Of a stretch of 50,157 nucleotides of DNA, positions 40,824-48,984 are shown one piece after another; the stretch's first letter is position 1; every line of letters starts with the position of its first letter. Origin of the DNA: Actinomycetota bacterium. GTDB lineage: Bacteria > Actinomycetota > JAUVYG01. Both the position numbers and the translations under genes were made by a program. The stretch covers positions 1 through 50,157 of the forward strand of contig JAUVYG010000004.1 of the NCBI GenBank assembly GCA_030603185.1, given 5' to 3'. The notes under the pieces are model-generated. The model was not told where the DNA came from, searched no databases, and saw only the letters and a program-made list of their open reading frames with translations.

Positions 40824-40855
40824 AGGAAAAGTCCCCCTTATAAGTTCAACCAAAA

Positions 40856-40882
40856 GGGACACTACGCCATTAGTAGTGCCCC
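40856..40882 (-). promoter_or_regulatory. Hairpin in the greA leader (possible attenuator)
   Basis: On the minus strand GGGGCACTAC, a 7-base loop TAATGGC, and GTAGTGTCCC form ten pairs including one G-U, then TTTT follows. It lies between the mapped promoter (transcription start about 40890) and the greA start at 40823, so it could pause or end transcription. Confidence 0.4.
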
Positions 40883-40897
40883 CGAATTATCTCGCGA

Positions 40898-40926
40898 ATT
40901 ATAGTCAACAACGCGGAGTGCGTCAA
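40898..40926 (-). promoter_or_regulatory. Promoter for greA-lysS-mcsAB-clpC run
   Basis: Minus strand TTGACG (40921-40926), 17 bases, then a perfect TATAAT (40898-40903). The -35 abuts the stop codon of the upstream dehydrogenase gene. Confidence 0.7.
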
Positions 40927-42099
40927 TCAGGAGACGGTCTCTCCGGCTTCTGGTGACTCGCCAGAGAGTCCTGCCTTGCGCACGAACTTGCTGTGCTTCA
41001 TGCGCGAGAACACCCTCATCCTCGCCTTCCTGCGCGTCCGAGTCATTTCTTCCTCGGTCAAAGTGCGATCGAAATTGCGGAGTCCAGCGACCTCGAAACC
41101 ATGCTTTTCAGCAGCCTTCGCTAGAGCGCTGATCTCTTTGACGTTGATACCCAAGGCGTTCTTCCTAAGATCTGGCTCAAGGGCTCTAAGGGCGGTCTCA
41201 GAGAAGCAGGCGTAACTAAGATTTGGTGGCAATCCCAGATTATTGAAGGTGGTGAATCTTGAGTCCCACTCGGGCTCACCTGGCAGGCGAACGATGCCGC
41301 CTTCTATCACAAGTATTCCTGTAGTCTTGGCTGCCTCTTCTGCGACATCCCTAGGCCGAGCGATGTCGCAGACCACGCTTCCCGGCTTCAGCCAGTCAGC
41401 TTCGACGATCACGCCAGTATCACTACTAGCACTGATCACAATGTCCGATCCCCGGAGGCTCTCTTTGATGTCGGTCGAGAAACTGATGTTGTCACCGGCC
41501 TCAGCCATTTTAGCCAATCGGTCCACGTTCTTGTGGCCAACGAGAACTAGCTCTTTCACCTCGGACTGAAGCTGCTTCGCACATACTCGACCAATGGATC
41601 CGGTTGCGCCGATGACGACAGCGCGCGCATCAGACAATTCGATCTTCATTTGATCAGCTGCCTCTCTGGCAGCTTCAAGTGCGGTCCACACGGTGAACCC
41701 ATTCCCGGAGGTCACAGGAACTCCGACTTCGCGTTCGATCATGCGGCCATGGTCTCCGACGATAGCTGTGTATGCCCCAAGGCCGATTATCTTGGCCCCA
41801 TCGGCTTCCAGTTTCTTGGCCGCCTGAAGGACTAGCTCACGAATGTCTTCGTCATCCACGATCATCTGCTCAGGAAGGCGTGGAACGCATTGGATGCGGG
41901 CCTCGACCTGTTGACCGGTCTGAGAAGTGATGATGACTGAGGAGATCTCCCATGATTCTTTCATCCAACCCAGCACCTTCTTCACCAGAGGGACGGGCTT
42001 CCCGATGGAGCCAGGCTCGAAGTCATACACGTCTTCAAGGTCGAGCGGATGCATGATGAATCCGAATATGGGTATTTCCGGTTCAGTCCCTTCGGTCAT
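40927..42099 (-). CDS. Acyl-ACP reductase (AAR)-like dehydrogenase
   Basis: The 390-residue protein matches the layout of cyanobacterial long-chain acyl-ACP reductase. An N-terminal domain starts FGFIMHPLDLEDVYD. The glycine-rich NAD(P) loop is GATGSIG (164-170) in a Rossmann fold. A Cys sits in YACFSETAL (C298), which aligns with the AAR ACFAEAML segment that holds the catalytic Cys; the following GINVKEISALAKAAEKHGF also aligns. AAR makes fatty aldehyde from acyl-ACP. The protein also belongs broadly to the shikimate/quinate dehydrogenase fold. No aldehyde-deformylating oxygenase is nearby. The ATG overlaps the SRPBCC stop, so it is in the aminotransferase operon. Substrate is inferred. Confidence 0.7.
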   Translation of the reverse strand: MTEGTEPEIPIFGFIMHPLDLEDVYDFEPGSIGKPVPLVKKVLGWMKESWEISSVIITSQTGQQVEARIQCVPRLPEQMIVDDEDIRELVLQAAKKLEADGAKIIGLGAYTAIVGDHGRMIEREVGVPVTSGNGFTVWTALEAAREAADQMKIELSDARAVVIGATGSIGRVCAKQLQSEVKELVLVGHKNVDRLAKMAEAGDNISFSTDIKESLRGSDIVISASSDTGVIVEADWLKPGSVVCDIARPRDVAEEAAKTTGILVIEGGIVRLPGEPEWDSRFTTFNNLGLPPNLSYACFSETALRALEPDLRKNALGINVKEISALAKAAEKHGFEVAGLRNFDRTLTEEEMTRTRRKARMRVFSRMKHSKFVRKAGLSGESPEAGETVS

Positions 42100-42530
42100 A
42101 CCTCAACCTCTCTCTTCATGCCCTCCAGCATCATCTGGGAGTTCTCTCTCACTTTTAGATCAAGAATGGGGCCGAGAAGATCGGCGAGCGTAGGCATCCC
42201 AAAATCGAACTCTACGACCAAGGTCACCTTGGTACCACCATCGACCGGCTCAAAGGTCCATTGGCCATCAAACTTATCTAGGTCGCCCTCTAGAAGCTTG
42301 TACTTGATCATCATCTGATCGTCATGGAAGGTATCTTCCTCTTTCCATGAGAGAGGGATTCCCTCGACCAGGGTGTTCCACTCGGTGATGGTCACGTTGT
42401 CATGACGCTCAAGAACTGTGATCTTGTCTACATCCGCCATGAACTGTGAGTATCGCTCCATGTCGGATGCGAAATCATAGACCGTTTGGGGTTCGGCGCT
42501 TATCTGAATAGAACTCTCAACTATCGGCAA
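42096..42530 (-). CDS. SRPBCC/START-like ligand-binding protein
   Basis: The 144-residue protein has the START/Coq10-type pattern: an N-terminal strand (VESSIQISAEPQTVYDFASD), a helix with DMERYSQFMADVDKITVLER, a central sheet and a long C-terminal helix (LKVRENSQMMLEGMK). These folds make a deep hydrophobic cavity for lipids, polyketides or isoprenoids. The TTG start lacks a clear ribosome-binding site. It is overlapped by the AAR-like gene by four bases and lies 17 bases from the aminotransferase, which suggests it binds the same hydrophobic intermediates (inference). Confidence 0.75.
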   Translation of the reverse strand: MPIVESSIQISAEPQTVYDFASDMERYSQFMADVDKITVLERHDNVTITEWNTLVEGIPLSWKEEDTFHDDQMMIKYKLLEGDLDKFDGQWTFEPVDGGTKVTLVVEFDFGMPTLADLLGPILDLKVRENSQMMLEGMKREVEV

Positions 42531-42547
42531 GTTGTCTCGGCACTCCT

Positions 42548-43816
42548 CTACTGTCGTTCCGCAAAGAGTAGCTCATATTTATCATCCGCGTAAGTAACTG
42601 CGGCCCGTAGAGCTTGTAGGGCGGTATCAACTTGCTCACGTGTGACTACCAATGGAGGCTCGACCCTGATCACCTTGGGCTGATTCAGAGTGTATGCTGC
42701 AAGCACACCAGCCTTTATCATCTCTGGAATAACCACCCCACCCAACCCTTCTTTGGTGAGCTCGACTCCGATCATCAGACCCTGGCCTCTGACCGCTTTG
42801 ATGATCCTCGGGTATTCGCTGCGGATCGCATCGATCCCCTCTATCAGTAGTGCGCCCATCTCCACTGCTTTGGCTGAGAGGTCCTCGTCTTTGGTCACTT
42901 GCAAGGCAGCCATTGCAGCCGAGCAGGCTAGTGGATTACCTCCGAAGGTGGAGGTGATGATCAATGGGTCTTTGGCAAAACTCTCCCACACCCAGGGGCG
43001 ACCGCAGAACGCGCCGATGGGCATCACTCCCCCACTCAGACCCTTGGCCAAAGTGATGATGTCAGGGGTGACTTCTTCGTGGTCGACCGCGAACATCCGA
43101 CCTGTACGCCCAAGTCCTGTCTGGATCTCATCCACAATCATCACTGCGCCGTGCTCATCGCACAGCTCACGTACACGGCTGAGGTACCCAACGGGTGGCA
43201 TAATGATCCCACCCTCCCCCTGGATTGGCTCGATGATAACGGCTGCTGTTTCCTTGGAAATGGCGACGGCTAACGGGTCAGTATCCCCGAAGGCTACGTG
43301 CTTGAAATCATCGACCAAGGGTCGGAACGGTGCCTTGAACTGCTCTCTTCCGGTCGCGCTTAGGGCGCCCATGGTTTTTCCATGAAAAGCGTTATCAGTC
43401 GCTATGACTTCGGTGCGACCTGTGGCCATACGAGCAAGTTTGATGGCGCCCTCTACTGCCTCCGCCCCGCTATTGCAAAAAAACGAGTACTGCATGTCCC
43501 CCGGCAACACCCCTGCAAGCATCTCGGCAAGATCGGCAAGGGGCTCATTCAGAAGAAGTTTCGAACCGAGTGACATCCGATCCATCTGCTTCTTCACCGC
43601 CTCAACTACGACTGGGTGAGAATGTCCAACATTGAACACTCCATAGCCGCCGGCAAAATCTAGGTATTCTTTGCCTCCGTTGTCGGTGATCACGCAGCCG
43701 GCTGCGGACACTTCAACGTTTCCGAGTCCGGTCACCTTTAACAGCCTGGCCAATCCTGGATTGTGAAACTTTGCGATCTTGGCTCGGACCATCTCGCTGT
43801 ATTGACCGCTATCCAT
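42548..43816 (-). CDS. Class III PLP-dependent aminotransferase
   Basis: The 422-residue enzyme starts at the ATG at 43816 behind GAGGAG; a GTG one codon upstream is too close to that site. Fold-type I features: CNSGAEAVEGAIKLAR binds the PLP phosphate, DEIQTGLGRTG holds the PLP Asp, and the Schiff-base Lys is in LAKGLSGGVMPIGA. It resembles putrescine, ornithine and acetylornithine aminotransferases; sequence alone does not fix the substrate. It overlaps the dehydrogenase-like gene by one base (TGATG). Confidence 0.85.
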   Translation of the reverse strand: MDSGQYSEMVRAKIAKFHNPGLARLLKVTGLGNVEVSAAGCVITDNGGKEYLDFAGGYGVFNVGHSHPVVVEAVKKQMDRMSLGSKLLLNEPLADLAEMLAGVLPGDMQYSFFCNSGAEAVEGAIKLARMATGRTEVIATDNAFHGKTMGALSATGREQFKAPFRPLVDDFKHVAFGDTDPLAVAISKETAAVIIEPIQGEGGIIMPPVGYLSRVRELCDEHGAVMIVDEIQTGLGRTGRMFAVDHEEVTPDIITLAKGLSGGVMPIGAFCGRPWVWESFAKDPLIITSTFGGNPLACSAAMAALQVTKDEDLSAKAVEMGALLIEGIDAIRSEYPRIIKAVRGQGLMIGVELTKEGLGGVVIPEMIKAGVLAAYTLNQPKVIRVEPPLVVTREQVDTALQALRAAVTYADDKYELLFAERQ

Positions 43817-44721
43817 CACAGCTCCTCTATGCTGGGCTCGATATCGAGCTTGTCCAGTAGGTCTAGGTAATCACTGGGGGTGATTTGGTCGACGCCCTTG
43901 CCAAGCGCTGCGACAAAGACGGCCTCGAGTACATTTGTGCCAAAGGACCGTCCCCCGAAGCGCGGGGTAGTAGTCACCAGCCACTTGACCCCTCGCTCAC
44001 GCAAGACCTCTACGTCTGATGGAGTCGTAGTGTTTGTAAGTACCGCCTTGCCCTCCAAGGTCGGGGGCATGTACCTGCGAATATAGTGAAAATCACCCGC
44101 GATCAGGGAAGACTCTGAGAACAACTCTTCACCTCTGGGTTCCGGTTCCTTTTCTTGTTCAGCTCCTACCGGATACAGTGCATCGAAAGGACCCTTTGTA
44201 ATCCTGGGAAGAATCTCGTCCGCTACTTTGGCCAACTGCTCAAATGACCTGATCGGGACTGGCATATCGAGAGCAAATATCATGTCTCCAAATGTAACGT
44301 CAGCACCCGCATCGACCAGCGATTCTGCCATTCCGAACCTATCCACGGCACAGACCATGAGTACTTTTTCCCCAACTATCGGGAATGGTCCGGACTCGAC
44401 GAGGGTGGATACGACCCTTTTTTCCAAAGAGTTCTTGAGACCGCTGCCGTCAACCACAGGAGTGGACTTCACCATGTCGCGCAGACGGGCGCCGTCCTTC
44501 ATTTCGTAGCGAGTGGTGGGGGAGTATACGTATATGTCGATACCGCCCAGTCCGATCGCGTCAACCGAGCCGTCGGCCTCAGCCAAGATCCGTGAGGCCT
44601 CGTCGAAATCCCCGTCAGTACCGATCCGCCTGATGTTGTAGTGCTCACCTAGCAGGTCGATCTCGACCTCGTGGTCCCTCTTTGAGGAGCCCAGACTAAC
44701 GCTGAGTATTCGGCGGCTCAG
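43816..44721 (-). CDS. Quinate-5-dehydrogenase-like protein, probable CTG start
   Basis: The conserved frame extends 45 codons beyond the last TTG (44586). The added residues (RRILSVSLGSSKRDHEVEI...) read like the family N-terminus. The only suitable start I see is the CTG at 44719-44721, which overlaps the rpe stop as CTGA, giving 301 residues. Typical segments are GLGGIDIYVYS, VVDGSGLKNSLEKRVV, VCAVDRFGMAESLVDAG, AGDFHYIRRYMPP and TTTPRFGGRSFGTNVLEAV. Such proteins are named quinate 5-dehydrogenase in databases without firm proof of function. The GGACTGGTC stretch just upstream is a poor ribosome site, so translation is probably coupled to rpe. Confidence 0.75.
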   Translation of the reverse strand: MSRRILSVSLGSSKRDHEVEIDLLGEHYNIRRIGTDGDFDEASRILAEADGSVDAIGLGGIDIYVYSPTTRYEMKDGARLRDMVKSTPVVDGSGLKNSLEKRVVSTLVESGPFPIVGEKVLMVCAVDRFGMAESLVDAGADVTFGDMIFALDMPVPIRSFEQLAKVADEILPRITKGPFDALYPVGAEQEKEPEPRGEELFSESSLIAGDFHYIRRYMPPTLEGKAVLTNTTTPSDVEVLRERGVKWLVTTTPRFGGRSFGTNVLEAVFVAALGKGVDQITPSDYLDLLDKLDIEPSIEEL

Positions 44722-45476: not shown

Positions 45477-46322
45477 TCAGGAGGCGTACATCTTGCCGTA
45501 CGGCCTGTGACTGACCGGAATCAGTTTGACGTACTCGCTGTCTTTCAACTCTTGCCGCTCGTCGTCACTCACTTCGAAGTGGTTGCAGTACTCGTCGATC
45601 TCATGATGAAGAGTTTCCGTGTCCTTGTCTGTGAAATCTACCGGAGCGACTTCAGCACCAAGCTGATACGGCTCGACTCTTCCACGAAGATAGATAACCC
45701 CACCGTGCATGCCCGTTCCGATGTGATGGCTGGGAATGAGGTCGCTGGGCATCTCGCCGAATTCCGTGGCACCCTGGACTGACGGCCTATTAAGAAGAAG
45801 CAAGACGCCACCGGCCATGTACTCGCCAAGGAAGTCGTGGGCGACTCCGCCGACAACGAGCACGGGAATCTTGTCCTCGTACTCCTTCATGTGAATCCCA
45901 CAGCGATATCCGGAATTGTCTCGTATATACACTTTGCCACCCCGCATCGCGAAGCCAGCAATGTCACTGCTGTGCCCATGAACGATAATACTGCCAGCAT
46001 TCATGGTGTTACCCACCGCGTCCTGGCAGTTGCTGTTCACTGTGATCTCGCAGCCGTTCATGAACACACCAAGATCATTACCAGCACAGCCCTCGATATC
46101 GATCTTTACTGGAGGAAGGTCTGTGGCAATATACCGCTGACCGTTAACATTCTTTAGTAGTAGGTGCTTTGCACCCTCGTCGCACACGACTCTCAGAAGC
46201 AGGTTGAGCTCACGATAGGTCAGGTCCTGCGCGTTTACTTCGACCTTTCCTTTTCCGTGATCAGTCACTCGGGACCTGTCCAGTGCCACATCAGCCTGCA
46301 TCGGATTGATCATCTTAGACAT
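45477..46322 (-). CDS. Glutamate synthase GXGXG-domain subunit (GltB3 type)
   Basis: The 281-residue protein forms the beta-helix of glutamate synthase as a separate subunit. Its repeats include EGCAGNDLGVFMNG, GNTMNAGSIIVHG and GFAMRGGKVYIRD. In the split archaeal-type enzyme it works with the FMN subunit and the amidotransferase encoded just upstream. An AGGTGG sequence precedes the ATG. A 50-residue C-terminal extension (about 225-281) goes beyond the helix. Confidence 0.88.
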   Translation of the reverse strand: MSKMINPMQADVALDRSRVTDHGKGKVEVNAQDLTYRELNLLLRVVCDEGAKHLLLKNVNGQRYIATDLPPVKIDIEGCAGNDLGVFMNGCEITVNSNCQDAVGNTMNAGSIIVHGHSSDIAGFAMRGGKVYIRDNSGYRCGIHMKEYEDKIPVLVVGGVAHDFLGEYMAGGVLLLLNRPSVQGATEFGEMPSDLIPSHHIGTGMHGGVIYLRGRVEPYQLGAEVAPVDFTDKDTETLHHEIDEYCNHFEVSDDERQELKDSEYVKLIPVSHRPYGKMYAS

Positions 46323-46333
46323 GTGTGGTCCAC

Positions 46334-47845
46334 CTACTTCCCTGCTGGGCGAACGCCCAAGATCTTTAGAGTTTCTTCATCCAGCCCTACACCTCGTAGC
46401 CTGAGACGATTCCCTCTGAGCGACTCAATGGCATTTACACCCATGGCTCCGAGAATATCTTTGATCTCTATGCTCCAGCCACGAAGGAGGTTGTATAGCC
46501 TCTCACTGCCCTCTTCAGGGTTAACCCTCTTGTTGAGCTGCCGATCCTGAGTTGTGAGCCCCCAGGCGCATTTACCGGTGAAACACCTCTGGCAAACTGT
46601 GCAGCCCAAAGCAATTAGAGCAGCCGTACCGATATATACCGCGTCAGCACCCAGCGCAATAGCCTTAGCAACGTCAGCACTATTCCTGATTCCACCGGAT
46701 ACGACAACAGAGACCTGATTCCTGATTCCCTCTTGGCGCAGTCTGTCGTCCACTGCCGCTAGAGCGAGTTCGATCGGGATACCCACGTTGTCTCTAATGA
46801 CGGTCGGAGTCGCTCCCGTGCCGCCCCTGAAACCATCGATCACGATTACGTCTGCGCCTGCGCGGGCGATTCCGCTGGCGATGGGCGCAGCATTATGGAC
46901 TGCAGCGATCTTTACAGCTACAAGCTTCTCGTAGTTTGTCGCCTCTTTGAGGGACATGACCAACTGTCTCAAGTCCTCAATGGAGTAGACGTCATGATGA
47001 GGCGCGGGCGATATAGCGTCAGTACCCTCAGGGATCATTCGAGTGAGTGAGATCTCGGCGTCGATCTTTTCACCAGGTAGGTGCCCACCAATACCAGGCT
47101 TAGCGCCTTGTCCGACCTTGATCTCGATCATTTGCCCAGCCTTTAAGTACTCGTCGAACACACCGTAACGACCCGACGCCACCTGAACGATGGTGTTGTC
47201 GCCGTACTCATACAGACTCGGGTGCAGGCCGCCCTCACCTGTGTTGTAAAGAGTGCCAGCCTCAGTTGCGGCAAGGGCGAGAGACTTGTGCACGTTATAG
47301 CTGATGGCTCCAAAGGACATCGCAGCGAACATTATTGGTGTCTCCAGCGCGACCGAGGGTCGATTCGGCGCCTTCACTTTTCCCTGGTCATCGATCTCGA
47401 TGGCGTCCGGCTTCGAACCCAAGTAGGTCCGCAGCTCCATCGGTTCACGCAAAGGGTCGATGGAAGGATTGGTGACCTGACTGGCGTCGAGCAGAAGATG
47501 ATCCCAGTAGATGGGGTGCGTCGTCGACGGCAGTTCGTTGCCACACGATGTGAGCAGTACTCCGCCGGTTTCTGCTTGCTTGTTTATCTCGCGCTGCGCT
47601 CGATTGGTCCAGAGTCCGTGCTTGCGAAAGGCAAGTCCATTCTCGTAAATGTTGATGGCGAGGGTCGGGCAGAACACCGCACATCTGCGACAGTCCACAC
47701 AGTTGCGGTTGTTAGCTACAATCCTGTCATCATCTTCATCGTGCTCAAGGGCATCAAAACTACAGTTGACCACACACGCACCGCAACGGATGCAAAGGTC
47801 ATCTTTTATCTCTACCTCGAACTCTGGTGATGAATAACTGATCAT
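46334..47845 (-). CDS. Glutamate synthase FMN subunit with ferredoxin domain (GltB2 type)
   Basis: The 503-residue protein has an N-terminal domain with two 4Fe-4S clusters (CIRCGACVVNC and CVDCRRCAVFC). The large FMN-binding glutamate synthase barrel follows (about 130-480; GAKPGIGGHLPGEKI, GADVIVIDGFRGGTGATP, GADAVYIGTAALIALGC). A third Cys group (GCTVCQRCFTGKC) is the 3Fe-4S site. It produces glutamate from 2-oxoglutarate and ammonia delivered by the amidotransferase. ATGA overlap with that gene. Confidence 0.93.
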   Translation of the reverse strand: MISYSSPEFEVEIKDDLCIRCGACVVNCSFDALEHDEDDDRIVANNRNCVDCRRCAVFCPTLAINIYENGLAFRKHGLWTNRAQREINKQAETGGVLLTSCGNELPSTTHPIYWDHLLLDASQVTNPSIDPLREPMELRTYLGSKPDAIEIDDQGKVKAPNRPSVALETPIMFAAMSFGAISYNVHKSLALAATEAGTLYNTGEGGLHPSLYEYGDNTIVQVASGRYGVFDEYLKAGQMIEIKVGQGAKPGIGGHLPGEKIDAEISLTRMIPEGTDAISPAPHHDVYSIEDLRQLVMSLKEATNYEKLVAVKIAAVHNAAPIASGIARAGADVIVIDGFRGGTGATPTVIRDNVGIPIELALAAVDDRLRQEGIRNQVSVVVSGGIRNSADVAKAIALGADAVYIGTAALIALGCTVCQRCFTGKCAWGLTTQDRQLNKRVNPEEGSERLYNLLRGWSIEIKDILGAMGVNAIESLRGNRLRLRGVGLDEETLKILGVRPAGK

Positions 47846-48984
47846 CCAGTCACCACCTCTTCCTTGTTCGTTGTCTTTGCCGTCTCGTAGAGCTCTGTGG
47901 CTGCTGCCTGGCCACCACGAGGCATCCAGATCTGCTCAGGCTCAGGACATATCTCGCGGATGGATGCCTCTTCAGAAGACAGATAGTATGTCGGGCCATG
48001 GGTCGCGACGACCAATGGCCTAAGGCGGATGCGGTCGGTGATGCCGATCATTCTTTCGCTATCGGCGATTATGAAGCTGAACGGGCCATTGAAGAGAAGT
48101 GGTCCGTACACTCTACGCAACGCCTCGGTAACAACTCGTTCATCCTCAGGCATCCTATCGATCGCCTCCCACAGTGGAGAAGCAATCACCTTTTCTACCA
48201 TCTCGATCGGTAGTCCGTGCTTTCTCATCAACAGATCGATCGTGTAGGCGACGACCTCAGTGTCAGTCATAAGGGTACATTTATAGTCATACATCTCGAG
48301 GTGACGCATGTTTGTCCCGTAGCTGGATAGCTCACCGTTGTGTACAACGGCCCAGTCCAGAAGGCCGAACGGATGACAACCGCCCCACCACCCCTGAGTG
48401 TTGGTCGGAAAACGGCCATGAGAGAGCCATGTGTAGCCCTTGTAATCGTAAAGACGGAAGAACTCACCTACATCTTCGGGGTATCCGACCCCCTTGAAGA
48501 TGCCCATATTCTTTCCACACGAGGAGACGAAGGCTCCCTCGATCCTGTCATTTACCTCGAGTGACAGTCTGACGACGTAGTCGCTTTCATCCTCGTTGAC
48601 CACGCTGGCGGCTTCAACGTCAACGAAGTAACGCCACAGCAATGGCGGATTGTGAACGTGCGCTGTCGGGTCAGTAGGAATAATCTCTGCCGCGACAATA
48701 CTGAAGTGCTCATGGAGAAACTCTTCCGTGGTTACACGAGCGCTCTCATCCATGTACATAAGGTGAAACGCGTACTGGTCAGCATGGTCAGGGTAGATGC
48801 CATAGCCGGCAAATCCACCGCCCAGACCATTTGAGCGCTCTTTCATGTTGGCGATTGCCTTAATGATGTCACTGCCATCTGTCAGAGATTTGTCTCTGTT
48901 CATGAAGCCGATAAGACCACAGGCTGCTATTATTTTTTCTCCGTGCAGCTGCCAGCTGCTGGAGAGATGCTTGGGAAAGCTCAT
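47842..48984 (-). CDS. Class II glutamine amidotransferase, GltB1/GlxB type
   Basis: The 380-residue protein releases ammonia from glutamine for the neighbouring FMN subunit. The Ntn-type catalytic Cys is in AACGLIGFMN at residue 22; it must be N-terminal to work, so a 21-residue propeptide should be cleaved off, as in proteobacterial glutamate synthase. Other family features are GYGIYPDHADQ, LSHGRFPTNTQG and VVHNGELSSYGTN. No start codon lies directly before the Cys. A promoter-like sequence sits at 49028-49057. Confidence 0.88.
   Translation of the reverse strand: MSFPKHLSSSWQLHGEKIIAACGLIGFMNRDKSLTDGSDIIKAIANMKERSNGLGGGFAGYGIYPDHADQYAFHLMYMDESARVTTEEFLHEHFSIVAAEIIPTDPTAHVHNPPLLWRYFVDVEAASVVNEDESDYVVRLSLEVNDRIEGAFVSSCGKNMGIFKGVGYPEDVGEFFRLYDYKGYTWLSHGRFPTNTQGWWGGCHPFGLLDWAVVHNGELSSYGTNMRHLEMYDYKCTLMTDTEVVAYTIDLLMRKHGLPIEMVEKVIASPLWEAIDRMPEDERVVTEALRRVYGPLLFNGPFSFIIADSERMIGITDRIRLRPLVVATHGPTYYLSSEEASIREICPEPEQIWMPRGGQAAATELYETAKTTNKEEVVTG

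Follow-up and report, generated by a model that had tools for sequence, protein, structure and literature searches.

The reduction of an acyl thioester to an aldehyde, followed by transamination of the aldehyde to a primary amine, is known from natural-product clusters. PigE both reduces the thioester and transaminates (PMC8341465), PtTamH converts a C12 aldehyde to the C12 amine with L-glutamate, the transaminase step having been shown for C7-C14 aldehydes (PMC9594044), and for KecF the route from acyl thioester through aldehyde to amine is a prediction (PMC6498172). Here we consider four genes in a stretch of 50,157 nucleotides (the window; assembly GCA_030603185.1, contig JAUVYG010000004.1, positions 1 to 50,157) from an Actinomycetota genome of 1.8 Mb in 147 contigs. 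They encode a thioester reductase of the acyl-acyl carrier protein (acyl-ACP) reductase (AAR)/PigE type, an SRPBCC protein, a class III transaminase and a protein for which we use QDH as a label only, its gene having first been called quinate-DH-like. We favour, with some reservation, the reading that these genes form the PigE/TamH/KecF reductase-transaminase machine in split form. The initial annotation had proposed an undescribed acyl-to-amine module. That chain is chemically sound, but it is already described, since PigE, TamH and KecF combine the reductase and the transaminase.

The reductase and the transaminase

By sequence comparison, the reductase is a true relative of AAR, and its nearest solved relative is PigE rather than the cyanobacterial enzyme. 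It matched a Shikimate_DH-type Rossmann domain together with the PigE and AAR models, and in a PDB search with the single sequence PigE came first (107 bits) and the AAR of Synechococcus elongatus (SeAAR) second, with glutamyl-tRNA reductase (GluTR) as a weak relative. The corresponding family-profile scores were 224 bits for PigE and 155 bits for SeAAR, and the score against TIGR04058, the equivalog of long-chain cyanobacterial AAR, was 90 bits, below its cut-off of 449.7. The structure model (predicted local distance difference test, pLDDT, 88) has the three-domain AAR fold and superposes on SeAAR (6jzu) with template-modelling (TM) scores of 0.72/0.82. With the functional residues of SeAAR taken from PMC7089970, Cys298 aligns with C294 and E301 with E297; in the family alignment the Cys is kept in 58 of 59 sequences, the Glu in all 59 and the loop glycines in 58-59. 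The initial annotation had picked out GATGSIG and the Cys in YACFSE as AAR features, and both alignment and model agree with it, Cys298 not being displaced from the nicotinamide site. Other positions have changed: Y247 of SeAAR is an Arg, and R189, R193 and R314, the arginines around the 2'-phosphate of NADPH, correspond to K190, R194 and a gap or non-Arg residue. The PigE and SeAAR branches in the reductase tree were very long, so their exact placement was not used.

The transaminase belongs to the Aminotran_3 family, and its nearest solved relative is the putrescine aminotransferase YgjG (4uox, 389 bits). The PigE model matches both the reductase (180 bits) and the transaminase (419 bits), its cut-off of 850 being set for the whole fusion, and two YgjG models gave the transaminase 475 bits (cut-off 612) and 408 bits (cut-off 658.65). 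Three clades could be told apart in the transaminase tree, all of them separate from ArgD. The first (Shimodaira-Hasegawa-like approximate likelihood-ratio test, SH-aLRT, 99) holds the PigE transaminase domain, itself a long branch, with two fusion proteins (L181 and L182) and "solo" transaminases of Bacillota and Actinomycetota; the second (86), which neighbours it, holds the SRPBCC-linked operon transaminases; and the third is YgjG. One operon transaminase (L039) was unplaced among the three. An ArgD identity was considered and rejected, as the operon transaminases fall outside that clade. The SRPBCC protein, of the Polyketide_cyc/Coq10 type, matches PF03364 at 4e-24 and has TTHA0849 (2d4r) as its nearest solved relative. 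Its gene comes after that of the transaminase in all 29 loci with enough contig to show it; the other three of the 32 lie at contig ends.

In three Bacillota (L181, L182 and L249) the two enzymes are joined in fusions of about 900 amino acids, in which, as in TamH and KecF, the transaminase precedes the reductase, and no pigment genes were recognised among the neighbours scanned. A further Bacillota genome (G333) encodes, at L250:4601-9615, a protein that scores 1349 bits against PigE (cut-off 850) directly after a PigD-like protein at 676 (cut-off 950). A methyltransferase gene lies downstream of this pair, possibly a prodiginine-type pathway in an unexpected phylum.

Distribution, gene order and the QDH protein

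Relatives were found through a search with the QDH alignment, a single-sequence scan of genome contigs having given none, and the transaminase group was delimited at 1e-94, a cut set from a gap in the scores. Among 199 Actinomycetota genomes, the reductase was present in 21 (with one additional weak match, in G097), and QDH and the transaminase group in 24 each. Both reductase and transaminase occurred in 21 genomes, the transaminase by itself in three, the reductase by itself in none and neither in 175; for reductase and QDH the corresponding counts were 20 with both, one with the reductase only, four with QDH only and 174 with neither. The reductase-bearing genomes belong to nine families. 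Co-occurrence, operons and fusions thus support a functional link between reductase and transaminase, as the initial annotation had supposed.

All four genes stand together in 28 of 80 named loci, which include Actinomycetota and Vulcanimicrobiota (Eremiobacterota). The order is QDH, transaminase, SRPBCC, reductase in Actinomycetota, and transaminase, SRPBCC, reductase, QDH in Vulcanimicrobiota, one Armatimonadota genome and others; one Chloroflexota locus has transaminase, reductase and QDH. Because linkage and co-occurrence recur across phyla, the four-gene arrangement is not due to chance. The expectation that all four genes would be linked in related genomes was borne out to that extent, but the set is modular, since many lineages keep only QDH and the reductase side by side and have the transaminase and SRPBCC genes as a pair elsewhere. 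QDH adjoins the reductase in most loci fetched, often with no adjacent transaminase, and in most lineages this pair adjoins greA. Of 29 Bacillota loci, 25 have QDH beside the reductase, in nearly all cases downstream of a helix-turn-helix (HTH) regulator, which makes HTH regulator-QDH-reductase the core operon in many Bacillota. A search of the source genome for this regulator, run without an internal control, was empty, so it seems to lie outside the system of the window. Of 300 genomes sampled from one Bacillota phylum, 187 have a relative of the reductase; we found no role assigned in that phylum to either this protein or QDH. In Bacillota assemblies the distance from the reductase to a contig end is often about 2.4-2.6 kb, which would fit an rRNA operon behind greA-lysS.

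In Aquicultor-type genomes (f18) the transaminase-SRPBCC pair stays together at a site apart from QDH and the reductase. A CDP-alcohol transferase gene beside that pair was considered as a lipid link and dropped, as DUF881/DUF1290 genes adjoin it and this is presumably an ordinary actinobacterial neighbourhood. Desulfotomaculum-type Clostridia carry SCP2 and permease genes next to QDH, and have the reductase at a second site, which in most of the loci fetched adjoins an HTH gene or greA. Some Clostridia have uncharacterised proteins, possibly degenerate reductases, in the reductase slot after QDH (L076:4389-5519, L089:3654-4391 and L110:6946-7734), the first of them with no Pfam match, and one locus (L029:10480-12428) has QDH in tandem duplicate ahead of the reductase.

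QDH had no family match in Pfam (E<=1) or NCBIfam (0.1), and no credible PDB match by sequence or by sequence profile. Its identification as a shikimate or quinate dehydrogenase, and with it the quinate-DH-like name of the initial annotation, was given up: there is no family match, and the dinucleotide loop reads AVDRFG. The structure model has a pLDDT of 92.5, and the highest query TM score in the structure listing, 0.51, belongs to an AAR chain, with non-AAR entries at 0.46 or below. Local profile comparison with the reductase and AAR (hhalign) was not significant. The global profile score against the reductase was 21.0, whereas 30 column shuffles, the only controls used, averaged 3.9 and did not exceed 9.9; the alignment pairs GLGGID with GLGAYT, DGSGLK with TSGNGF and AVDRFG with GATGSIG. 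We take QDH to be a separate conserved family, probably a diverged AAR-fold paralogue that lacks the catalytic Cys, and, as the controls were column shuffles and not other Rossmann families, grade the paralogy as no more than probable.

In the window, the four genes (Table 1) are open reading frames on the minus strand downstream of the epimerase gene rpe, with the close spacing that the initial annotation had described. QDH and the transaminase gene overlap by 4 bases, the SRPBCC gene begins 17 bases past the transaminase gene and is preceded by GAGGAG, and the SRPBCC and reductase genes share a 4-base ATGA overlap. The transaminase start is either the GTG that overlaps the QDH stop or, alternatively, an ATG at 43816. 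QDH probably starts at the CTG at 44721, the final bases of which overlap the TGA stop of rpe, because the N-terminus of its relatives is conserved (M-K-x-V-V-S-V-S-L-G-S-S). A promoter-like site preceding greA begins one base past the reductase stop, and the operon therefore probably ends there. Between that site and the probable greA start, an 11-pair stem with a T-rich tail (40855-40883, minus strand) could be a leader attenuator. The operon is flanked by rpe/glt genes on one side and greA-lysS-mcsAB-clpC on the other. At 45477-48984 three consecutive genes resemble separate domains of a split glutamate synthase large subunit, as judged by sequence only.

Table 1. Operon genes and adjoining promoter-like site in the window
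Feature	Position	Strand	Remarks
QDH (uncharacterised family protein, 301 aa)	43816-44721	minus	probable CTG start; AVDRFG loop, no catalytic Cys
Class III pyridoxal phosphate (PLP) transaminase (423 aa)	42548-43819	minus	PLP lysine K259; YgjG/PigE superclade, outside ArgD
SRPBCC (Polyketide_cyc/Coq10-type) hydrophobic-ligand-binding protein (144 aa)	42096-42530	minus	PF03364
AAR/PigE-type thioester reductase (390 aa)	40927-42099	minus	GATGSIG 164-170, Cys298, Glu301
Promoter-like TTGACG-N17-TATAAT, ahead of greA	40898-40926	minus	11/12 consensus match only

The proposed pathway and its alternatives

The two enzyme families, the reductase fold and catalytic residues, and the linkage, co-occurrence and fusions were computed directly; from them we infer the direction of the pathway, its substrate and chain length, its product and the roles of QDH and the SRPBCC protein. 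In the split PigE/TamH/KecF-type machine, the reductase would load an acyl group from acyl-ACP or acyl-CoA onto Cys298 and reduce it with NAD(P)H to the aldehyde, which the transaminase would convert to a primary amine with an amino-acid donor and PLP on K259. The SRPBCC protein would probably bind or shuttle the poorly soluble aldehyde or amine, and QDH would probably either catalyse a step of its own or act together with the reductase. As substrate we favour a hydrophobic acyl chain of medium or long length, because of the kinship with AAR, PigE and TamH and the lipid-binding partners (SRPBCC, or SCP2 in Desulfotomaculum-type Clostridia).

Several points weigh against this reading. The predicted activities and product rest on kinship, and since the transaminase scores below both the PigE and the YgjG curated cut-offs, sequence does not fix its substrate; its apparent kinship to YgjG would also be compatible with small amines. 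As aligned, the arginine pocket for the 2'-phosphate is kept in part only. The sampled genomes are relatives, so the significance of the co-occurrence overstates their independence. QDH occurs with no reductase in f24 and G180, where the transaminase was also not found in the genomes tested, which argues that QDH has a role independent of the two enzymes. Conversely, an Aquicultor-type genome (L036, in G094) has the reductase directly after the HTH gene and no QDH, a natural loss of that gene.

The alternative that survives best, though we consider it unlikely, is a small-molecule analogue of GluTR/GSAM or ArgC/ArgD, with a polar aminoaldehyde or diamine as product instead of a lipid amine. 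Those pairs follow the same logic of a reductase and a class III transaminase, and the weak relation of the reductase to GluTR and the position of the transaminase near YgjG would both fit. However, the fold and sequence of the reductase are those of AAR/PigE, not of GluTR or ArgC; a separate ArgD-like transaminase is encoded elsewhere in the source genome (G000:C45), and the operon transaminases lie outside the ArgD clade; and the neighbouring SRPBCC or SCP2 proteins are of the hydrophobic-ligand type. Somewhat less probable still is a catabolic direction, in which an imported amine or diamine would be transaminated to the aldehyde, as by YgjG, and oxidised to acyl-CoA by the AAR-like enzyme. 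The YgjG score points this way, as does the gene for an amino-acid/polyamine-type permease (PF13520) that follows QDH in Eremiobacterota and Clostridia. Yet the window operon has no such permease gene, the characterised AAR, PigE and TamH relatives work as reducing enzymes, and proteins that join these two domains act in biosynthesis (PMC8341465, PMC9594044).

It is improbable that the four genes serve no shared pathway and are just housekeeping neighbours transcribed together: their site between rpe/glt and greA, shared in part by the QDH-reductase pair of most lineages, may be inherited, but the two internal orders across phyla, the re-pairing of transaminase and SRPBCC elsewhere, the genome-wide co-occurrence in the absence of linkage and the gene fusions all speak for a functional association. 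A cyanobacterial-type alkane route through AAR and aldehyde-deformylating oxygenase (ADO) can be dismissed with near certainty, the initial annotation having already taken it as not implied, for although the reductase is an AAR homologue, no Ald_deCOase was found in nine genomes searched, whereas a control genome of S. elongatus gave a match, and the ADO-interface residues R73, R79 and K80 of SeAAR are D82, E88 and L89 in the window reductase.

The genes are found again in several phyla whose members are mostly anaerobes. Should the reductase-transaminase pair turn acyl thioesters into amines, then widespread anaerobes contain aminated lipids or polyamine-like compounds that have been overlooked as a class, and PigE, TamH and KecF gain a plausible ancestral setting. 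A bolder reading, which we hold to be less likely than not, is that an undescribed chromosomal pathway of QDH, AAR-type reductase, PigE/YgjG-type transaminase and SRPBCC or SCP2 is common to many anaerobic Bacillota, Actinomycetota and Eremiobacterota and supplies a primary amine or aminolipid to core cell chemistry. QDH would then be a Cys-less enzyme or subunit of AAR fold, and the PigE/TamH/KecF fusions in pigment and alkaloid clusters would be captured derivatives of the pathway. Tests are feasible in cultured hosts, among them Desulfofundulus and Pelotomaculum.

Comparison with described systems

No already described split operon was found in the open-access literature, subscription journals lying outside the search. 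PigE, which acts in the biosynthesis of 2-methyl-3-n-amyl-pyrrole (MAP) for prodigiosin (PDB 4ppm), pairs an AAR-like thioester reductase with a class III transaminase as the window does. However, it is a single polypeptide in a pigment cluster, whereas the two enzymes in the window are products of separate genes with the SRPBCC gene in between; they do not reach the PigE equivalog cut-off, and their partners are SRPBCC and QDH. PtTamH (tambjamine) and KecF (koreenceine), in which the transaminase domain precedes the AAR-like domain, are likewise fusions, encoded in natural-product clusters that belong chiefly to Proteobacteria; here the genes are separate, and the lineages that carry them are mostly anaerobic and have small genomes. 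SeAAR (6jzq/6jzu) shares the three-domain fold, the catalytic Cys and the GATGxIG loop, but the window reductase has neither the ADO partner nor the ADO interface, and differs at Y247 and in its TIGR04058 score. YgjG is the nearest solved relative of the window transaminase but forms a distinct clade and has curated cut-offs that the transaminase does not reach. Compared with these systems, the novelty lies in QDH, in the split arrangement and in how widely that arrangement is distributed.

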